From: Trichocoleus desertorum NBK24
Lineage (GTDB): Bacteria; Cyanobacteriota; Cyanobacteriia; FACHB-46
DNA: 64,000 bases
Assembly: GCF_030409055.1 (NCBI RefSeq)
Contig: NZ_CP116619.1
Coordinates: forward strand, 2,370,628-2,434,627
Direction: 5' to 3'
In this document: positions 16,355-25,079 of the stretch, piece after piece
Layout: each line of letters starts with the position of its first letter
Numbering within the stretch: position 1 is the first letter of the stretch
The notes under the pieces: generated by a model
What the model was told of the DNA's origin: nothing
Database searches by the model: none
What the model saw: the letters and a program-made list of their open reading frames with translations, nothing else
Translations under genes and position numbers: made by a program

Positions 16355-17326
16355 ATGAGCCAGATTTCCCCCCAAAAGCCTGCTGTTTCGTCGTCCCAGA
16401 TTAATCTTCTCCAAAAGTATGCCCCCTGGCTCTATGCTTTCTGGAAGTTTTCCCGCCCCCACACCATTATTGGCACGAGCCTGAGTGCGCTGGGGTTGTA
16501 CGCGATCGCCAGTGCCACAACGTCGATTCCCTTTGCCCTCAGCTCTGTAGGAGTGCTGTTAGCAGCTTGGGTAGCTTGTCTCTGCGGCAACGTCTACATT
16601 GTGGGGCTAAATCAACTAGAGGATATCGAGATTGACCGGATCAACAAACCACACTTACCTGTGGCTTCGGGTGAATTTTCGCGATCGCAAGGTTGGGCTA
16701 TTGTCCTTTTCACTGGAGCCTTGGCGCTGCTGATTTCCCTCAGTTCCGGTTGGTTTCTCTTCGGTACAGTGGGGATTAGCTTGGCGATCGGGACTGCCTA
16801 CTCTTTACCCCCGATTCGGCTGAAGCGATTTCCAGTTTGGGCCTCACTGTGCATTTTTACAGTGCGGGGTGTGATCGTAAATTTGGGACTATTTCTACAC
16901 TTTAGCCAGCAACTTCAGGGCCAAGGTACTATCACTCCAGCAGTTTGGGCGCTGACGCTATTTGTTCTGGTATTTACGTTTGCGATCGCCATCTTTAAAG
17001 ATATTCCTGATATTGATGGCGATCGCCAATACAACATCAATACATTTACAATTCGGCTCGGTACAAAAGCCGTATTTAAGCTATCTCGCTGGGTGCTGAC
17101 TGCTTGCTATCTTGGCATGATTTTAGCTGGCTTATTTAACCTGGCAGGCGTTAATTCTAAGTTTTTAATTGTGACTCACTTAGCCGCTTTGAGCTTGCTT
17201 TGGTGGCGAAGTTTGCGAGTTGACCTGTCAGACAAAATCGCGATCGCCAGCTTCTACCAATTCATTTGGAAGCTCTTTTTCTTAGAGTATTTAGTTTTTC
17301 CTCTTTCCTGCTTTCTAAGACTTTAA
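16355..17326 (+). CDS. Homogentisate phytyltransferase (UbiA family)
   Basis: 323 residues with about nine membrane helices. The first Asp-rich prenyl-diphosphate motif is NQLEDIEIDRINKPHLPVASGE (written here as NQLEDIEID then NKPHLP), and the second is KDIPDIDGD. These and the opening FWKFSRPHTIIGTSLSALGLY place it with cyanobacterial VTE2-type enzymes, which join phytyl diphosphate to homogentisate in the first committed step of tocopherol synthesis. It follows the methyltransferase gene by 123 bp. Its stop overlaps that of the convergent large fusion gene. Confidence 0.92.
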   Translation: MSQISPQKPAVSSSQINLLQKYAPWLYAFWKFSRPHTIIGTSLSALGLYAIASATTSIPFALSSVGVLLAAWVACLCGNVYIVGLNQLEDIEIDRINKPHLPVASGEFSRSQGWAIVLFTGALALLISLSSGWFLFGTVGISLAIGTAYSLPPIRLKRFPVWASLCIFTVRGVIVNLGLFLHFSQQLQGQGTITPAVWALTLFVLVFTFAIAIFKDIPDIDGDRQYNINTFTIRLGTKAVFKLSRWVLTACYLGMILAGLFNLAGVNSKFLIVTHLAALSLLWWRSLRVDLSDKIAIASFYQFIWKLFFLEYLVFPLSCFLRL

Positions 17327-20238
17327 AGAATTTCCACAGTTCCTTGTTGACCATCAATTCTGACCCACTGGCCATCTTGCAATTGATGGGTCGCGTCATG
17401 CACATCCATCACGGCAGGAATGCCATACTCCCGTGCCACGATCGCACCGTGAGACAAGCGCCCTCCTACTTCCGCAATCAAGCCTCCTGCTCTGGCTAGC
17501 AGTGGTGCCCAACCAGAATCGGTGTATGGCACCACCAAAATTGTTTCTCGATCAATTTCTGCGATCGCTTGCAAACTCCGCAACACTTTGACTCGGCCCT
17601 CTACCTGGCCTGGGCTAGCTCCAATGCCTTGTAATTTTTGCGAAGGTTGCCAGTTGTGAACGGTGACAGAGGTGAGTGGAGCATTCCCATAGACCAAAGC
17701 GGGCACTTGTACCAGTTCATTATCTTGGGCCAGTTGCGATCGCCGTTCTGCAATTAACGTAGAAACTTGGCTAGATAAATCAGCATCCGATTGCTGAATT
17801 AGTCGCCAAATTTCCTCAAATTTCAAAAAGAAAATATCGCCTGCTGCCGCCAGCAATCCCTGCTCCAGCCACAACTTTTCTAGCACCACAAAACTCCAGC
17901 GCAATTCTGCTAACAACTGACTATAAACCTCTGTCACCTGACCTTTCAAACTCACTCGCTGCTGGACTCGCTGTACTTTCCAAGCAGGCGATCGCCCCTC
18001 AGCAAGAGCAGGAGCAGAAGCAGGTGGGTTGAGCAGAAATTGGGTGAATAGGTCACAAACAGGTTTGGAATCTTCTCGCCAAGTCGGCACCGCAATATCC
18101 GTCCCCACTTCGCTCAAGTAACCATAGGTGTCGAGAAACTGAGCTAGCTGGTCAGACAAGGTTTGACCGTTGGGGAGGGCTGCTAAGGTGTCCAAAACTT
18201 CAGGAGTTGGAGCAGGATTCTCCAAGTTAGCGACTAAGTGGCGGTTACGATTGGCGATGTCTTGCAGCGATCGCAACGCAGCGACTTCTGGGGTGCTGCT
18301 GTTGTCTATTTCGCTATCCTGAACCTTTAGAATTGCCTGTCGTAGCGCTGCGCTCAGCGGAGCCAAAATGCTGTAATAAGTCGCCCGCTTCAATACTCGC
18401 AAGATAGTATCAATGCGCTCTAGGAGAGCAGGAGCGCTCAAGTTCTCGGCAGGTTCTCGCGTTAACGTGGTTAAGAGGGGTGCAAACTGACGCTGATAGT
18501 CGTACCGAAAGTCTTTGTCGAGCTGCCATTCTCGTTGGAGCAGTCGCAGTAGCCCTGGTGTATTGCTTACAGTGGAGCCTAAAGGTGGTTTGCTGAACTT
18601 GGCTCCTCTCGTCAAGAATTCCAGGCTCTCAGGAGGTAAGCCCATGCGGAGGAAGGTTTGCCCTAACAAAGAGGCGTTGAAGTAAGCGCGAGACTGATGT
18701 AACGTCGCGGTTTCATTGAAGTCAAGTCCTCGCGATCGCTTGCCGCCTAAAACTAAGGTAAAAATTTCGCCCCAAACTCCACAGGTCAAAGGCCGATTAA
18801 TTGACCAAGTTAAGGGGCGGATCAAGCCAGGAATCACTTCCGCTGCAATCTTGCGAGTCCAAATGGGCAACAGAGTAGTGATAGGGCGCGATTGCAAGAG
18901 CCACAAGGTCTGTCCGTCGTAAGTCCACTCTATATCTTGCGGCAGTCCATGATACCGGGCCTCTAAATGTCTAGCCAAAAACGCCACTTGCTGAATTAGG
19001 CGGGGCGGCAAATCTCCTGTTCCTTCGACGGGTAGCTCTAAATCAGTGGGTAGCACCCAGCTAGAGTCCGCTTGAGCTAAATCGCTTTCACGCACCAAAA
19101 CCCGATATTGCTCTGGGGTAAACTGCCCAGATACAATCCGTTGGGTCTCACCGGGGAGCGCTTCAATCACCACGGCTTCACCCTGCCGAGCGATCGGGTC
19201 ACGGCTAAAAGCTACTCCTGAAAACGCGCCACGAATTTGCTGCTGCACCAGAATTGCCATTGCAGCTTCTGGTAGTCCGCGATCGCGCCGATATTGCACC
19301 GCTCCGGGCTGGTCGTAGGAAGCCAAGCACTGAGCGATCGCCCGCTCCAAAGCGCCTTGACTTGTCACATTCAAAATACTTTCGTACTGCCCTGCCGCCG
19401 ACGCTAGCTCCGAATCTTCTCCCACCGCTGAGGAGCGCACTACCAAAGGTTTCTCGGAGGAAGGTTGCAGAAACTCAATCAGTGGTGTTGAATCATCGCC
19501 GGGTGGCAAGACCCAACCTGCTGGGACAGGATAGCCCCACCGCATTAGTTGTGAGAGTGTGGCTGCTTTCTGCCCAACTTTTTGCGCTTCTAAAGGCCGA
19601 TTCAGCGAGACTAGAGCGCGATCGCCGCGAAAAAACTTAAACACTGCTTGGGATTCCGGTTGGCCTGCTTCTGGAGTTAAGTCTAAATCATCGGGAATCT
19701 TGCGGTAAATCCAACCCATGAGACTGCCCAAAGCGATCGCTGCCACAATCAAAGCAGGTTCTTGGGGATGCAATAAAGCAGTGAGCAGGGGAAACAAAAC
19801 CAATACTAAGATCTTGCCCTGACGCTTTTCTCGCAGAATCGTGGAGCCAATACCCCCCAGAATAAACGCCAGCAACCAAGCCATCCAATCGTGAACAGCG
19901 TAGCCCCAAACCACATTGGTTGTGCCTGCGCCGCGAGCTATCCAGTAACGCCCCATCACCAAGGCAATTAAAGAGATTAGCTCCCACTCTGGAGCTTGCG
20001 GAAAAAAGTAACGGGCAATTAAAACCGCAGCAACCCCTTTGAATGCCTCTGACAGGACAGCCAGAATTCCAACAAAGCGACCCCCGTGATAAAACGCTGC
20101 TGAAACACTGACATTGCCTGTCCCTAGTTTGATGAGCTGTTTTCGGGTCAAAGCATAGGTGAGCCAGCTAATTAGAGGCAACCCACCCAGCAAGGGACAG
20201 CCAATGCAGATAATTAGAGCACCTAAAACTTCGTTCAT
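17323..20238 (-). CDS. Fusion: PlsY-like membrane domain + PEP-synthase/rifampin-phosphotransferase-like enzyme
   Basis: 971 residues. Residues ~1-190 are membrane helices resembling PlsY glycerol-3-phosphate acyltransferase, with GTGNVSVSAAF in place of the family GSGNxGATN motif. From ~205 a PPDK/PEP-synthase ATP-grasp domain follows (ALVSLNRPLEAQKVGQKAATLS, VVRSSAVGEDS, AAGQYESIL, ILVQQ.I.GAFSGVAFSRDP, DIEWTYDG..WLLQSRPI to ~450). A helical region of ~400 residues leads to the phospho-histidine swivel domain at the C-terminus (GGRLSHGAIVAREYGIPAV). The TIM barrel of PEP synthase is missing, so the order ATP-grasp, helical part, His domain resembles rifampin phosphotransferase. Substrate unknown. 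Confidence 0.85.
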   Translation of the reverse strand: MNEVLGALIICIGCPLLGGLPLISWLTYALTRKQLIKLGTGNVSVSAAFYHGGRFVGILAVLSEAFKGVAAVLIARYFFPQAPEWELISLIALVMGRYWIARGAGTTNVVWGYAVHDWMAWLLAFILGGIGSTILREKRQGKILVLVLFPLLTALLHPQEPALIVAAIALGSLMGWIYRKIPDDLDLTPEAGQPESQAVFKFFRGDRALVSLNRPLEAQKVGQKAATLSQLMRWGYPVPAGWVLPPGDDSTPLIEFLQPSSEKPLVVRSSAVGEDSELASAAGQYESILNVTSQGALERAIAQCLASYDQPGAVQYRRDRGLPEAAMAILVQQQIRGAFSGVAFSRDPIARQGEAVVIEALPGETQRIVSGQFTPEQYRVLVRESDLAQADSSWVLPTDLELPVEGTGDLPPRLIQQVAFLARHLEARYHGLPQDIEWTYDGQTLWLLQSRPITTLLPIWTRKIAAEVIPGLIRPLTWSINRPLTCGVWGEIFTLVLGGKRSRGLDFNETATLHQSRAYFNASLLGQTFLRMGLPPESLEFLTRGAKFSKPPLGSTVSNTPGLLRLLQREWQLDKDFRYDYQRQFAPLLTTLTREPAENLSAPALLERIDTILRVLKRATYYSILAPLSAALRQAILKVQDSEIDNSSTPEVAALRSLQDIANRNRHLVANLENPAPTPEVLDTLAALPNGQTLSDQLAQFLDTYGYLSEVGTDIAVPTWREDSKPVCDLFTQFLLNPPASAPALAEGRSPAWKVQRVQQRVSLKGQVTEVYSQLLAELRWSFVVLEKLWLEQGLLAAAGDIFFLKFEEIWRLIQQSDADLSSQVSTLIAERRSQLAQDNELVQVPALVYGNAPLTSVTVHNWQPSQKLQGIGASPGQVEGRVKVLRSLQAIAEIDRETILVVPYTDSGWAPLLARAGGLIAEVGGRLSHGAIVAREYGIPAVMDVHDATHQLQDGQWVRIDGQQGTVEIL

Positions 20239-20382: not shown

Positions 20383-20410
20383 AAAAAGCGCCCCCCGTAA
20401 GGAGAGCGCT
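20383..20410 (-). terminator. Terminator of psbA
   Basis: Downstream of psbA on its strand, AGCGCTCTCC and GGGGGGCGCT pair (two G-U pairs) around a TTAC loop and are followed by TTTTTGC. Stem arms are 20387-20396 and 20401-20410. Confidence 0.85.
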
Positions 20411-20436
20411 CTTATTTAGCTAGTAGTAGCTAGAGA

Positions 20437-21519
20437 TTAACCGTGGATAGCAGGAGCGGTTAGCGCTACAGGAGCAGCTTCGCCAGCAGCCAGGTCGAGG
20501 GGGAAGTTGTGAGCGTTGCGCTCGTGCATCACTTCCATACCCAGGTTCGCACGGTTCAGTACGTCAGCCCAGGTGCCAATCACTTGACCCTGTGAGTCGA
20601 TGATCGACTGGTTGAAGTTGAAGCCGTTTAGGTTGAACGCCATCGTGCTGATGCCCAAGGACGTGAACCAGATGCCGATCACAGGCCATGCACCCAAGAA
20701 GAAGTGCAGCGCCCGGCTGTTGTTGAAGGACGCATATTGGAAGATCAAGCGGCCGAAGTAGCCGTGAGCTGCCACGATGTTGTAGGTCTCTTCTTCTTGA
20801 CCGAACTTGTAACCGTAGTTCTGAGACTCGTTCTCGCTGGTTTCACGCACCAAGGAGGAAGTCACCAAGGAACCGTGCATCGCGGAGAACAGAGCACCCC
20901 CGAATACACCTGCGACACCGAGTTGGTGGAAGGGGTGCATCAAGATGTTGTGCTCCGCTTGGAACACCAACATGAAGTTGAAGGTACCAGAGATACCGAG
21001 GGGCATGCCATCGGAGAAGGAACCTTGGCCGATAGGGTAGATGAGGAAGACTGCGGTTGCTGCTGCTACGGGTGCAGAGTAAGCAACGCAGATCCAAGGA
21101 CGCATACCGAGGCGGTAGGAGAGTTCCCACTCACGACCCATGTAGCAGAAGACGCCAATGAGGAAGTGGAAAATCACCAACTGGTAAGGGCCACCGTTGT
21201 AGAGCCACTCATCGAGGGAAGCAGCTTCCCAGGTGGGGTAGAAGTGGAGGCCGATCGCATTGGAGGAAGGAACAACGGCACCAGAGATGATGTTGTTGCC
21301 GTAGATGAGGGAGCCAGCGACAGGCTCACGGATACCATCGATATCAACGGGAGGAGCGGCAATGAAGGCGATGATGAAGCAGATGGTGGCAGAGAGCAGG
21401 GTAGGAATCATCAGGACGCCGAACCAGCCTACATAGAGGCGGTTGTCGGTGCTGGTGACCCAGTTGCAGAACTGCTCCCACAGGTTGGCGCTTTCGCGTC
21501 TCTGTAGAGTAGTAGTCAT
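20437..21519 (-). CDS. psbA: Photosystem II D1 protein
   Basis: 360 residues, the full precursor length. Functional residues are in place: Tyr161 (YZ), Asp170, Glu189, His190, His198 (P680 chlorophyll), His215, His252 and Ser264 at the QB site, His272 (non-haem iron), His332, Glu333, Asp342 and Ala344, after which CtpA cuts. D1 carries the reaction-centre cofactors and most ligands of the Mn4Ca cluster in the thylakoid membrane. Residue 130 is Glu, the form linked in cyanobacteria to high-light D1 copies, while Gln130 marks the low-light form. Only this psbA copy is in the window. The coding bias is that of a highly expressed gene. Confidence 0.99.
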
Positions 21520-23801: not shown

Positions 23802-25079
23802 ATGTTTAGGCAAATTCGTCGTCCCCAGGGCAATCGCGTCGTCGTAGGGGGGTATCACCGCGATCGCCAAGATGACCGCGATCGTCATTATGCTCGGCCC
23901 CACAATGTGAGGCAAAACAGCTTGCCCAAGTTTGTAGATTTGCGGCAGCACATGACCACAGTCGAAAACCAGGGCGAGATAGGAAGCTGTACAGCCAATG
24001 CGATCGCAGGAGCCTATGAATATCTAGCTAAGCGGCTCACAGGGCAAAACTACGATATTAGTCGGTTGTTTATCTACTACTTAGCCAGAAAATTTGATGG
24101 CTGTGAGCAAGAAGACAGTGGCGCAACTTTACGTCGGGGCATGAAAGTTTTAACCAAGTATGGCGCTTGCTCCGAAGCCACTTGGCCCTACCAAGTTGAA
24201 ACTTTTTGCGATGAACCGCACGATGAAGCTTTTCAAGAAGCGGCTGAGCATTTAATTGATGAGTACGATCGCATTGATGTCAATTTGCACGCAATGAAAG
24301 TCTGTCTAGCCGAGGGTTATCCCTTCGTCTTCGGTTCTGATATCTTTCAATCTTTTGAAGAGCTAGATCATCGAGGGCACGTGAATATGCCGCTCCCTAG
24401 CGAAGAAAACTTGGGTGGTCACGCCATGCTCGCTTGCGGCTACTCCGATAAAGACCAAGTGTTTCTAGTTCGCAACTCTTGGGGCACCGATTGGGGCGAC
24501 AGAGGTTACTGCTACATGCCCTACGAGTACTTGACCAACACAGACTTAACAGGCGACTGCTGGACTCTCCGCCGCGCCAACAATCTCGATTTCTCAGAAG
24601 ATATCAGCAGTAGCTATGAAGAAGGCTTCTCATTCTTTGATTTGCTAATCGAACTCCTCACAGGCACGGACGTACCCACAGACGAAGAAGAATACGAAGA
24701 CGAGGAAGGCGAAGAAGTAGAGGAAGAATACGAGGATGAAGAATCTGAGGAAGATGAAGAAGCTGAAGAGGAGGATGAGGAACTAGTAGAAGAATCTGAA
24801 GACGAAGAGTACGAAGACGAGGAAGAACTAGAGGAGGAAGAAGAGTCTGAAGAGGATGAGGAACTAGAGGAATCTGAGGAAGATGAGGAGGAGTACGAAG
24901 ACGAGGAATCTGAAGAGGATGAGGAACTAGAAGAGGAGGATGAAGAATCTGAGGAATACGAAGACGAGGAAGAATACGAAGACGAAGAATCTGAAGAGGA
25001 GGATGAAGAATCTGAGGAATACGAAGACGAGGAAGAATACGAAGACGAGGAAGAATACGAAGATGAAGAAGAGGAGTAG
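23802..25079 (+). CDS. Papain-family (C1) peptidase-like protein with long Glu/Asp tail
   Basis: 425 residues, start ATG with AGGAG upstream. Residues ~40-260 are a C1 peptidase fold: oxyanion Gln57 and nucleophile Cys63 in ENQGEIGSCTANA, catalytic His207 in GGHAML, Asn225 in VRNSWGTDWGDRGYCYMPYEY. All catalytic residues are present. The N-terminus is Arg-rich (HRDRQDDRDRHY). From ~293 to the end, ~133 residues are nearly only Glu and Asp with spaced Tyr and Ser, in repeats such as EESEEYEDEEEYEDEE. No signal peptide, so likely cytoplasmic. The tail could bind metal ions or basic partners, or keep the enzyme soluble; this is inference. The repeats make the DNA prone to length change. Confidence 0.88.
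   Translation: MFRQIRRPQGNRVVVGGYHRDRQDDRDRHYARPHNVRQNSLPKFVDLRQHMTTVENQGEIGSCTANAIAGAYEYLAKRLTGQNYDISRLFIYYLARKFDGCEQEDSGATLRRGMKVLTKYGACSEATWPYQVETFCDEPHDEAFQEAAEHLIDEYDRIDVNLHAMKVCLAEGYPFVFGSDIFQSFEELDHRGHVNMPLPSEENLGGHAMLACGYSDKDQVFLVRNSWGTDWGDRGYCYMPYEYLTNTDLTGDCWTLRRANNLDFSEDISSSYEEGFSFFDLLIELLTGTDVPTDEEEYEDEEGEEVEEEYEDEESEEDEEAEEEDEELVEESEDEEYEDEEELEEEEESEEDEELEESEEDEEEYEDEESEEDEELEEEDEESEEYEDEEEYEDEESEEEDEESEEYEDEEEYEDEEEYEDEEEE

Follow-up and report, generated by a model that had tools for sequence, protein, structure and literature searches.

A membrane domain of the PlsY fold with an altered pocket, fused to a rifampin-phosphotransferase-like dikinase in cyanobacteria

Two enzymes of known structure resemble the two halves of the protein described here. 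Rifampin phosphotransferase (RPH; PDB 5hv1-5hv3, 5fbs-5fbu) consists of an ATP-grasp domain, a helical acceptor domain and a C-terminal swivel domain with the catalytic histidine, and has no phosphoenolpyruvate (PEP) barrel, while PlsY (PDB 5xj5-5xj9) is a membrane acyltransferase that acts on glycerol 3-phosphate (G3P) with an acyl phosphate as its known donor. Both folds occur in one gene of Trichocoleus desertorum NBK24, at positions 17323-20238 of the 64,000-nucleotide stretch analysed here (the window), which belongs to a genome of 5.46 Mb in one contig. The fusion shares with RPH the order of domains, the absence of the barrel, and the conserved ATP-site Lys and Arg and swivel His; it differs in its additional N-terminal PlsY-fold domain, its shorter ATP-grasp domain and the lack of RPH's Arg666-Glu667..Lys670 block. 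With PlsY it has in common the membrane fold, a Ser at the position of Thr41 and a glycine-rich loop at the second motif, but the G3P clamp is replaced, His92 has become Arg, motif 2 is four residues shorter and a dikinase is attached. The phenol dikinases HpeHI and PpsAB would share the ATP-to-His-to-hydroxyl chemistry expected of the ATP-grasp and swivel parts, but are made of two soluble subunits, act on phenols and have no membrane domain. PEP synthase and PPDK also have ATP-grasp and swivel domains, whereas the fusion lacks their PEP/pyruvate barrel and carries its His domain at the C terminus. The FakAB-PlsY fatty acid recycling of Gram-positive bacteria would work alike, in that an ATP-made acyl phosphate from a free fatty acid is handed to a PlsY-type acyltransferase; there, however, the kinase is a different, two-component one, the proteins are separate and the acceptor is G3P. 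With the clamp replaced and the acceptor block missing, we would class the fusion neither with PlsY proper nor with RPH proper. Both folds were already known; on their fusion, on the change at both active sites and on how widely it occurs, we found no literature among open-licence PMC papers. The gene and its parts are as follows.

17323-20238, minus strand: whole fusion gene, 971 amino acids in a single open frame (open reading frame list, Pfam, AlphaFold2 model)
19624-20238, minus strand: PlsY-fold membrane domain, residues 1-205 (Pfam; structure match 5xj7)
20080-20124, minus strand: residues 39-53, GTGNVSVSAAFYHGG, corresponding to motif 1 of PlsY (alignment, profile alignment)
19903-19953, minus strand: residues 96-112, GRYWIARGAGTTNVVWG, which correspond to motif 2 of PlsY (GH..GGKGVAT) but are four residues shorter and have an invariant R97 (alignments)
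18871-19623, minus strand: ATP-grasp domain, residues 206-456 (Pfam, structure match, alignments)
17644-18870, minus strand: mostly helical part, residues 457-865 (~410 residues), presumably acceptor-binding (model, structure matches)
18604-18870, minus strand: residues 457-545, where conservation within the protein is highest (alignment of 43 sequences)
17326-17643, minus strand: phosphohistidine swivel domain, residues 866-971 (Pfam, structure match)
17449-17451, minus strand: codon of His930, counterpart of RPH His825 (alignments)

Pfam places G3P_acyltransf at residues 14-177 (E 6.3e-15), PPDK_N at 261-456 (E 3.2e-42) and the PEP-utilizers mobile domain at 896-966 (E 1.3e-23), all above cut-off; no PEP-synthase (PEP/pyruvate) barrel family is among the Pfam matches, and the dikinase half consists of PPDK_N and PEP-utilizers only. 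The NCBIfam matches, to models of PEP synthase, RPH and prodigiosin ligase, all lie far under cut-off, so no curated NCBIfam family in the list covers the fusion. Its closest PDB relatives by sequence are Listeria RPH; a phmmer search of the PDB with the N-terminal part alone gave zero matches, and the likeness to PlsY came from the fold search. The AlphaFold2 model, built with 45 relatives (mean pLDDT 88.5, pTM 0.75), resembles RPH over residues 207-971 (5hv3: Z 35.1, 648 aligned residues with a root-mean-square deviation (rmsd) of 21.7, so high presumably because the domain poses differ) and PlsY over residues 4-205 (5xj7: Z 18.3, rmsd 3.0 over 180 aligned residues, with a target of 193 residues); HpeI matches it with Z 16.6 and rmsd 5.2 over 225 aligned residues (9goj). 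This bears out the sequence-only reading of the window, which had proposed a PlsY-like domain and an RPH-like dikinase in one 971-residue chain without the PEP barrel and with a helical part of ~400 residues; the last is about 410 residues long (457-865).

The fusion is confirmed as a genuine single protein. It occupies one frame, and unbroken full-length relatives are present in many genera, which excludes an erroneous joining of two genes and disposes of the worry, voiced in the sequence-only reading, of an assembly or frameshift artefact or of a fusion absent from all relatives. In a sample of 339 genomes drawn across the phylum, 147 have matches to the query at the threshold of 1e-10, and 96 genomes from 25 families encode the fusion, carriers being called by match strength (best E at most about 2e-90). 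The remaining, weaker matches look like RPH-like or PEP-synthase-like proteins. None of the 96 carriers belongs to family f20, which has small genomes and probably comprises picocyanobacteria (L, G and f are our handles for loci, genomes and families). The best 80 of 572 relatives in named genomes all bear cyanobacterial names except one metagenome-assembled genome (MAG) labelled Tatlockia, and 322 plasmid records match the query, none of them covering 80% of it. Overall, 134 fusion loci were gathered, some genomes being included twice (for example L035 and L091). At L063, two open reading frames were considered as a natural un-fusion, an idea that was rejected: the frame breaks in the linker, apparently through a one-base frameshift.

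Residue conservation was taken from 43 sequences of alignment A1, which comprises the window and 44 loci from the range L033-L085 (53 in all), with two f14 rows left out. The sequence GTGNVSVS, which had been picked out from the letters alone as an altered PlsY motif, is indeed the fusion's version of motif 1, at residues 39-46. When the fusions are aligned by profile to 34 canonical PlsY sequences of the phylum (probability 97.6), motif 1 is gap-free, and PlsY Ser35 corresponds to T40 (40/43 fusions), Thr41 to S46 (37/43), Arg45 to Y50 (39/43) and His92 to R97 (all 43). Four residues of motif 2 are deleted, and PlsY Lys104 is G105 in 42 of the 43, followed by TTN. Where the alignment is extended beyond the profile match, Y178 and about I181 stand opposite His177 and Asn180. 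The G3P clamp of PlsY (Ser35, Arg45, Lys104, Asn180), plus His177, is replaced, and at the acyl-phosphate site S46, R97 and the loop GTTN take the places of Thr41, His92 and loop 104-107; the T41S variant of aaPlsY retains 45% activity (PMC5700162, Table 2). With the clamp replaced and the donor side better kept, we predict that G3P binding is lost but that acyl transfer is not necessarily lost with it, the donor (acyl-phosphate) side probably being partly kept through S46, R97 and the glycine-rich loop.

The new pocket residues T40, N42, R97, T107, N108 and W111 are near-invariant among fusions, and the mean share of the majority residue is 0.618 in the PlsY-like domain vs 0.617 in the ATP-grasp domain. 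Joint change of the two halves was counted in 133 fusion proteins, from all loci except L063 and with genomes present twice included, at chosen pocket residues (T40, N42, F49, R97, T107, N108, W111, G112) and dikinase residues (K224, R268, S270, E274, D275, H930). Both halves are intact in 124 proteins and both changed in eight, which stand for some six lineages (three f14 proteins; L065, L068, L070, L077, L158); the dikinase alone is changed in one (L128, S270T) and the pocket alone in none. Because the replacements are near-invariant and none is lost where the chosen dikinase residues are all kept, selection seems to act on the pocket, and we read it as rebuilt, not decayed. The earlier suggestion was that the first domain may have lost acyltransferase activity; what we predict to be lost is G3P binding, and a decaying domain is not supported.

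A few copies are degenerate. In L080, L081 and L082 (G058, G083, G211; family f14) the catalytic His is Gln and the ATP-site loop and PlsY motif 1 are deleted, with the frame open; the gene is flanked by an aminotransferase gene on one side and a gene for a PMT-type glycosyltransferase on the other, and kaiA comes next. At L077:7605-9377, a 591-residue paralogue of the fusion is without the helical acceptor domain and has altered PlsY and ATP-grasp motifs, the swivel His being kept.

In the dikinase half, K224 and R268 (RPH K22 and R117) and S270 are present in all 43 fusions, and His930 is His in 42; the degenerate f14 pair and L065 have Gln instead. The ATP-grasp domain is shorter than that of RPH by a region after residue 250, and residues 457-545, at the start of the helical part, have a mean majority-residue share of 0.825. 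The conserved ATP-site residues and H930 suggest that the first half-reaction of RPH is kept. For the second half-reaction, RPH requires its Arg666-Glu667..Lys670 block, which is reported to be conserved from clade A through clade Q (PMC4844700). Neither MAFFT nor HHalign finds this block in the fusion, where K765-Gly or a gap stands instead, depending on the aligner. Its Arg-Glu pair is present in all 12 aligned RPH-like paralogues of the phylum (a 13th sequence, L222, in the wrong frame, was left out), and the control paralogue L211 can be aligned with RPH-Lm in full, its REYPK block too. The missing block argues that the acceptor chemistry of the fusion differs from that of RPH. The acceptor may be a lipid precursor, as the sequence-only reading had suggested. 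As a separate observation, L211 and L212 are proteins of the phylum that align end to end with Listeria RPH (L211 with 1174 bits), the REYPK block being present.

The genome of the window has PlsX and, besides the fusion, the second, normal plsY whose existence the first look at the letters had raised. Canonical plsY is found in 94 of the 96 fusion genomes; by family model and tblastn it is absent from G051 (1 contig) and G064 (2 contigs), both near-complete, Nostocaceae-like genomes of family f7 (L290, L289) with the fusion and with plsX kept. At their old plsY locus the flanking genes are rearranged beside repeats, with zero N. Close relatives possess plsY, and in the two genera just 1 of 2 and 1 of 16 genomes are without it, so an assembly gap or a very recent loss is possible; either PlsY has been replaced there by the fusion or something else, or the assemblies miss plsY. 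Among genomes without the fusion, G193 (L256, L259) has two canonical plsY genes.

Few neighbours are common to the 134 loci, and no general conserved operon surrounds the fusion. The gene of a GDSL hydrolase with an N-terminal helix lies near it in 38 loci, mostly divergent and mostly in Nostocales; in L145, a Leptolyngbyaceae MAG, it overlaps the fusion's stop codon (ATGA). The GDSL hydrolase gene is present in 71 of the 339 genomes, 70 of which carry the fusion. G133, whose match is weak and partial (E 6.4e-31, 36% over 184 aa), was left out of this count (72 to 71), and G129 is the sole genome that matches the gene strongly (E 1.6e-72) while lacking the fusion. Among genomes of the class of at least 3 Mb, the gene is found in 70/96 with the fusion vs 1/18 without it (Fisher p 8e-8, uncorrected for kinship). 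In the genome of the window it lies at C1:3375513-3376424, distant from the fusion. A model of the hydrolase (pLDDT 68, five sequences) resembles TesA (thioesterase)/lysophospholipase L1 and other GDSL hydrolases. No pathway emerged from the surroundings of the gene in 39 genomes; its neighbours there are, judging by their sequences, presumably an oxidoreductase and BtpA-like, VKOR-like and diguanylate cyclase proteins.

With the architecture, the conservation, the joint change of the two halves and the gene association established, we propose, at a probability of roughly one in three, that the fusion uses ATP to activate a lipophilic acid to an acyl phosphate, which the PlsY-like half then uses on a neutral acceptor other than G3P. 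From the conserved residues and the fold, the ATP-grasp domain, together with the swivel domain's His930, would take the beta-phosphate of ATP, with AMP and Pi leaving, as in RPH and PEP synthase; everything after ATP binding we infer. The swivel domain would turn to the helical domain and phosphorylate the lipophilic acid, for which a free fatty acid is the likeliest candidate, and the acyl phosphate would enter the PlsY-like domain, where its acyl group would pass to the non-G3P acceptor. The linked, TesA-like GDSL hydrolase would liberate the fatty acid or else hydrolyse the product, and the two proteins could form a cycle of acyl recycling or remodelling. Since the known donor of PlsY is an acyl phosphate, which an ATP-driven phosphotransferase can make, this would be the simplest reason to fuse both folds. 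The gene of a YegS-type lipid kinase directly downstream of the fusion in several loci also counts in its favour.

Several points weigh against this proposal. To our knowledge, no member of the RPH/PEP synthase group phosphorylates a carboxylate; the acceptors we know of are alcohol, phenol and enol oxygens. Several of the eight doubly changed proteins show a single mild dikinase change (S270T in L158, which L128 has too; D275E in L068; E274K in L070), the scored positions were picked with the alignment already seen, and relaxed selection or decay of a whole unused gene can also yield joint change. The GDSL gene is missing from 26 of the 96 fusion genomes, and a control gene, for homogentisate phytyltransferase, correlates with the fusion too (82/96 with vs 5/18 without, p 2e-6), which shows how much association kinship alone can give. 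No His92 replacement of aaPlsY in the cited passage, which does not include Arg, works well (H92K 2%; PMC5700162). Cyanobacteria, moreover, are described as already activating free fatty acids via acyl-ACP (acyl carrier protein) synthetase (PMC11973298), and with this enzyme and the PlsX acyl-phosphate route in existence, a second route needs a reason.

Close behind, possible but to be doubted, ranks the phosphorylation of a membrane-lipid hydroxyl (a prenol, quinol or glyceride), with the PlsY-like domain holding or releasing the lipid phosphate and no acyl transfer at all. Relatives of the dikinase half do act on hydroxyls, RPH on rifampin (PMC4844700) and HpeHI and PpsAB on phenols (PMC12167813), as far as the cited passages go. 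The PlsY fold contains a phosphate-binding hole, the phytyltransferase gene is convergent to the fusion in the window, and a PMT-type glycosyltransferase directly follows the fusion in 5 loci; we take this glycosyltransferase, by its family, to use a polyprenyl-phosphate sugar. The phytyltransferase gene, however, is a neighbour in 0/133 other loci, 14 of the 96 fusion genomes are without it and 7 of its 89 carriers are without the fusion, and a mere holder would leave the conserved residues of the former acyl-phosphate side unexplained. A tocopherol or phytol link through this gene was for its part rejected as a general one on its missing neighbourhood and its absence from those 14 genomes.

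Should the fusion instead be a second G3P acyltransferase, turning fatty acid, ATP and G3P into lysophosphatidic acid as a PlsX-free bypass able to replace PlsY, the lack of plsY in G051 and G064 would fit; but the retention of plsY in the other 94 carriers, its very patchy absence in the two genera and the missing counterparts of three of the four clamp residues and of His177 make this improbable, R45A or K104A alone leaving PlsY with 1% and 7% activity in the cited passage (PMC5700162). Acyl transfer to plastoquinol or phytol, independent of the DGAT2-like slr2103, would be a special case of the acyl-phosphate proposal with a named acceptor, and a distinctly improbable one. The lost clamp suggests a neutral hydroxyl acceptor, and strains without slr2103, including Gloeobacter violaceus, are described as making acyl-plastoquinol by other genes (PMC11973298, PMC12048435), but slr2103 orthologues in Nostoc and Anabaena can explain the acyl-plastoquinol of these genera, according to the same source (PMC11973298). 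As to complementarity with the fusion, a DGAT2 match was found in 5 of the 339 genomes, at a cut-off that is too strict. That the PlsY-like domain is a membrane anchor only, for a dikinase of soluble type, would agree with the loss of the canonical PlsY motif; we hold it to be very improbable, as the domain is conserved like the ATP-grasp domain and the absence of any pocket-only change argues against a mere anchor.

The remaining neighbours of the fusion gene differ between lineages. Cupin (22 loci, in Nostocales where named, often with an ATGA overlap), YegS-type lipid kinase (8 loci, directly downstream in several) and PMT-type glycosyltransferase (6 loci, adjacent in 5) are same-strand neighbours in separate lineages. 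In L059:5030-7183 and L071, from one genus, a 718-residue protein with a swivel-type His domain lies beside the fusion and looks by eye like a PEP-utilising enzyme with a barrel. The phytyltransferase gene of the window lies at 16355-17326, and at 23802-25079 is a gene whose product resembles papain-type proteases and has a long, acidic tail made of EDEE repeats. On the upstream side of the fusion gene is one further feature.

20384-20413, minus strand: terminator-like hairpin in the interval from the fusion gene to psbA (20437-21519) (consensus scan)

The scan found 9 such hairpins against 4.9 expected; because of the one between them, psbA and the fusion gene probably form separate transcripts, not one.

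Family matches would name the fusion product PEP synthase or G3P acyltransferase, and both names are probably wrong. Should a single chain make an acyl phosphate from a free fatty acid with its dikinase and use it for PlsY-type acylation of an acceptor other than G3P, it would provide a new activation route and a new class of PlsY-fold acyltransferase in most larger cyanobacteria, which we put forward tentatively and consider rather unlikely on present evidence. If true, it would add a carboxylate acceptor to the dikinase group, the PlsY fold would serve acceptors beyond G3P, and the fusion would be a candidate enzyme for those acyl lipids of cyanobacteria whose synthesis is unexplained, such as acyl-plastoquinol made without slr2103.

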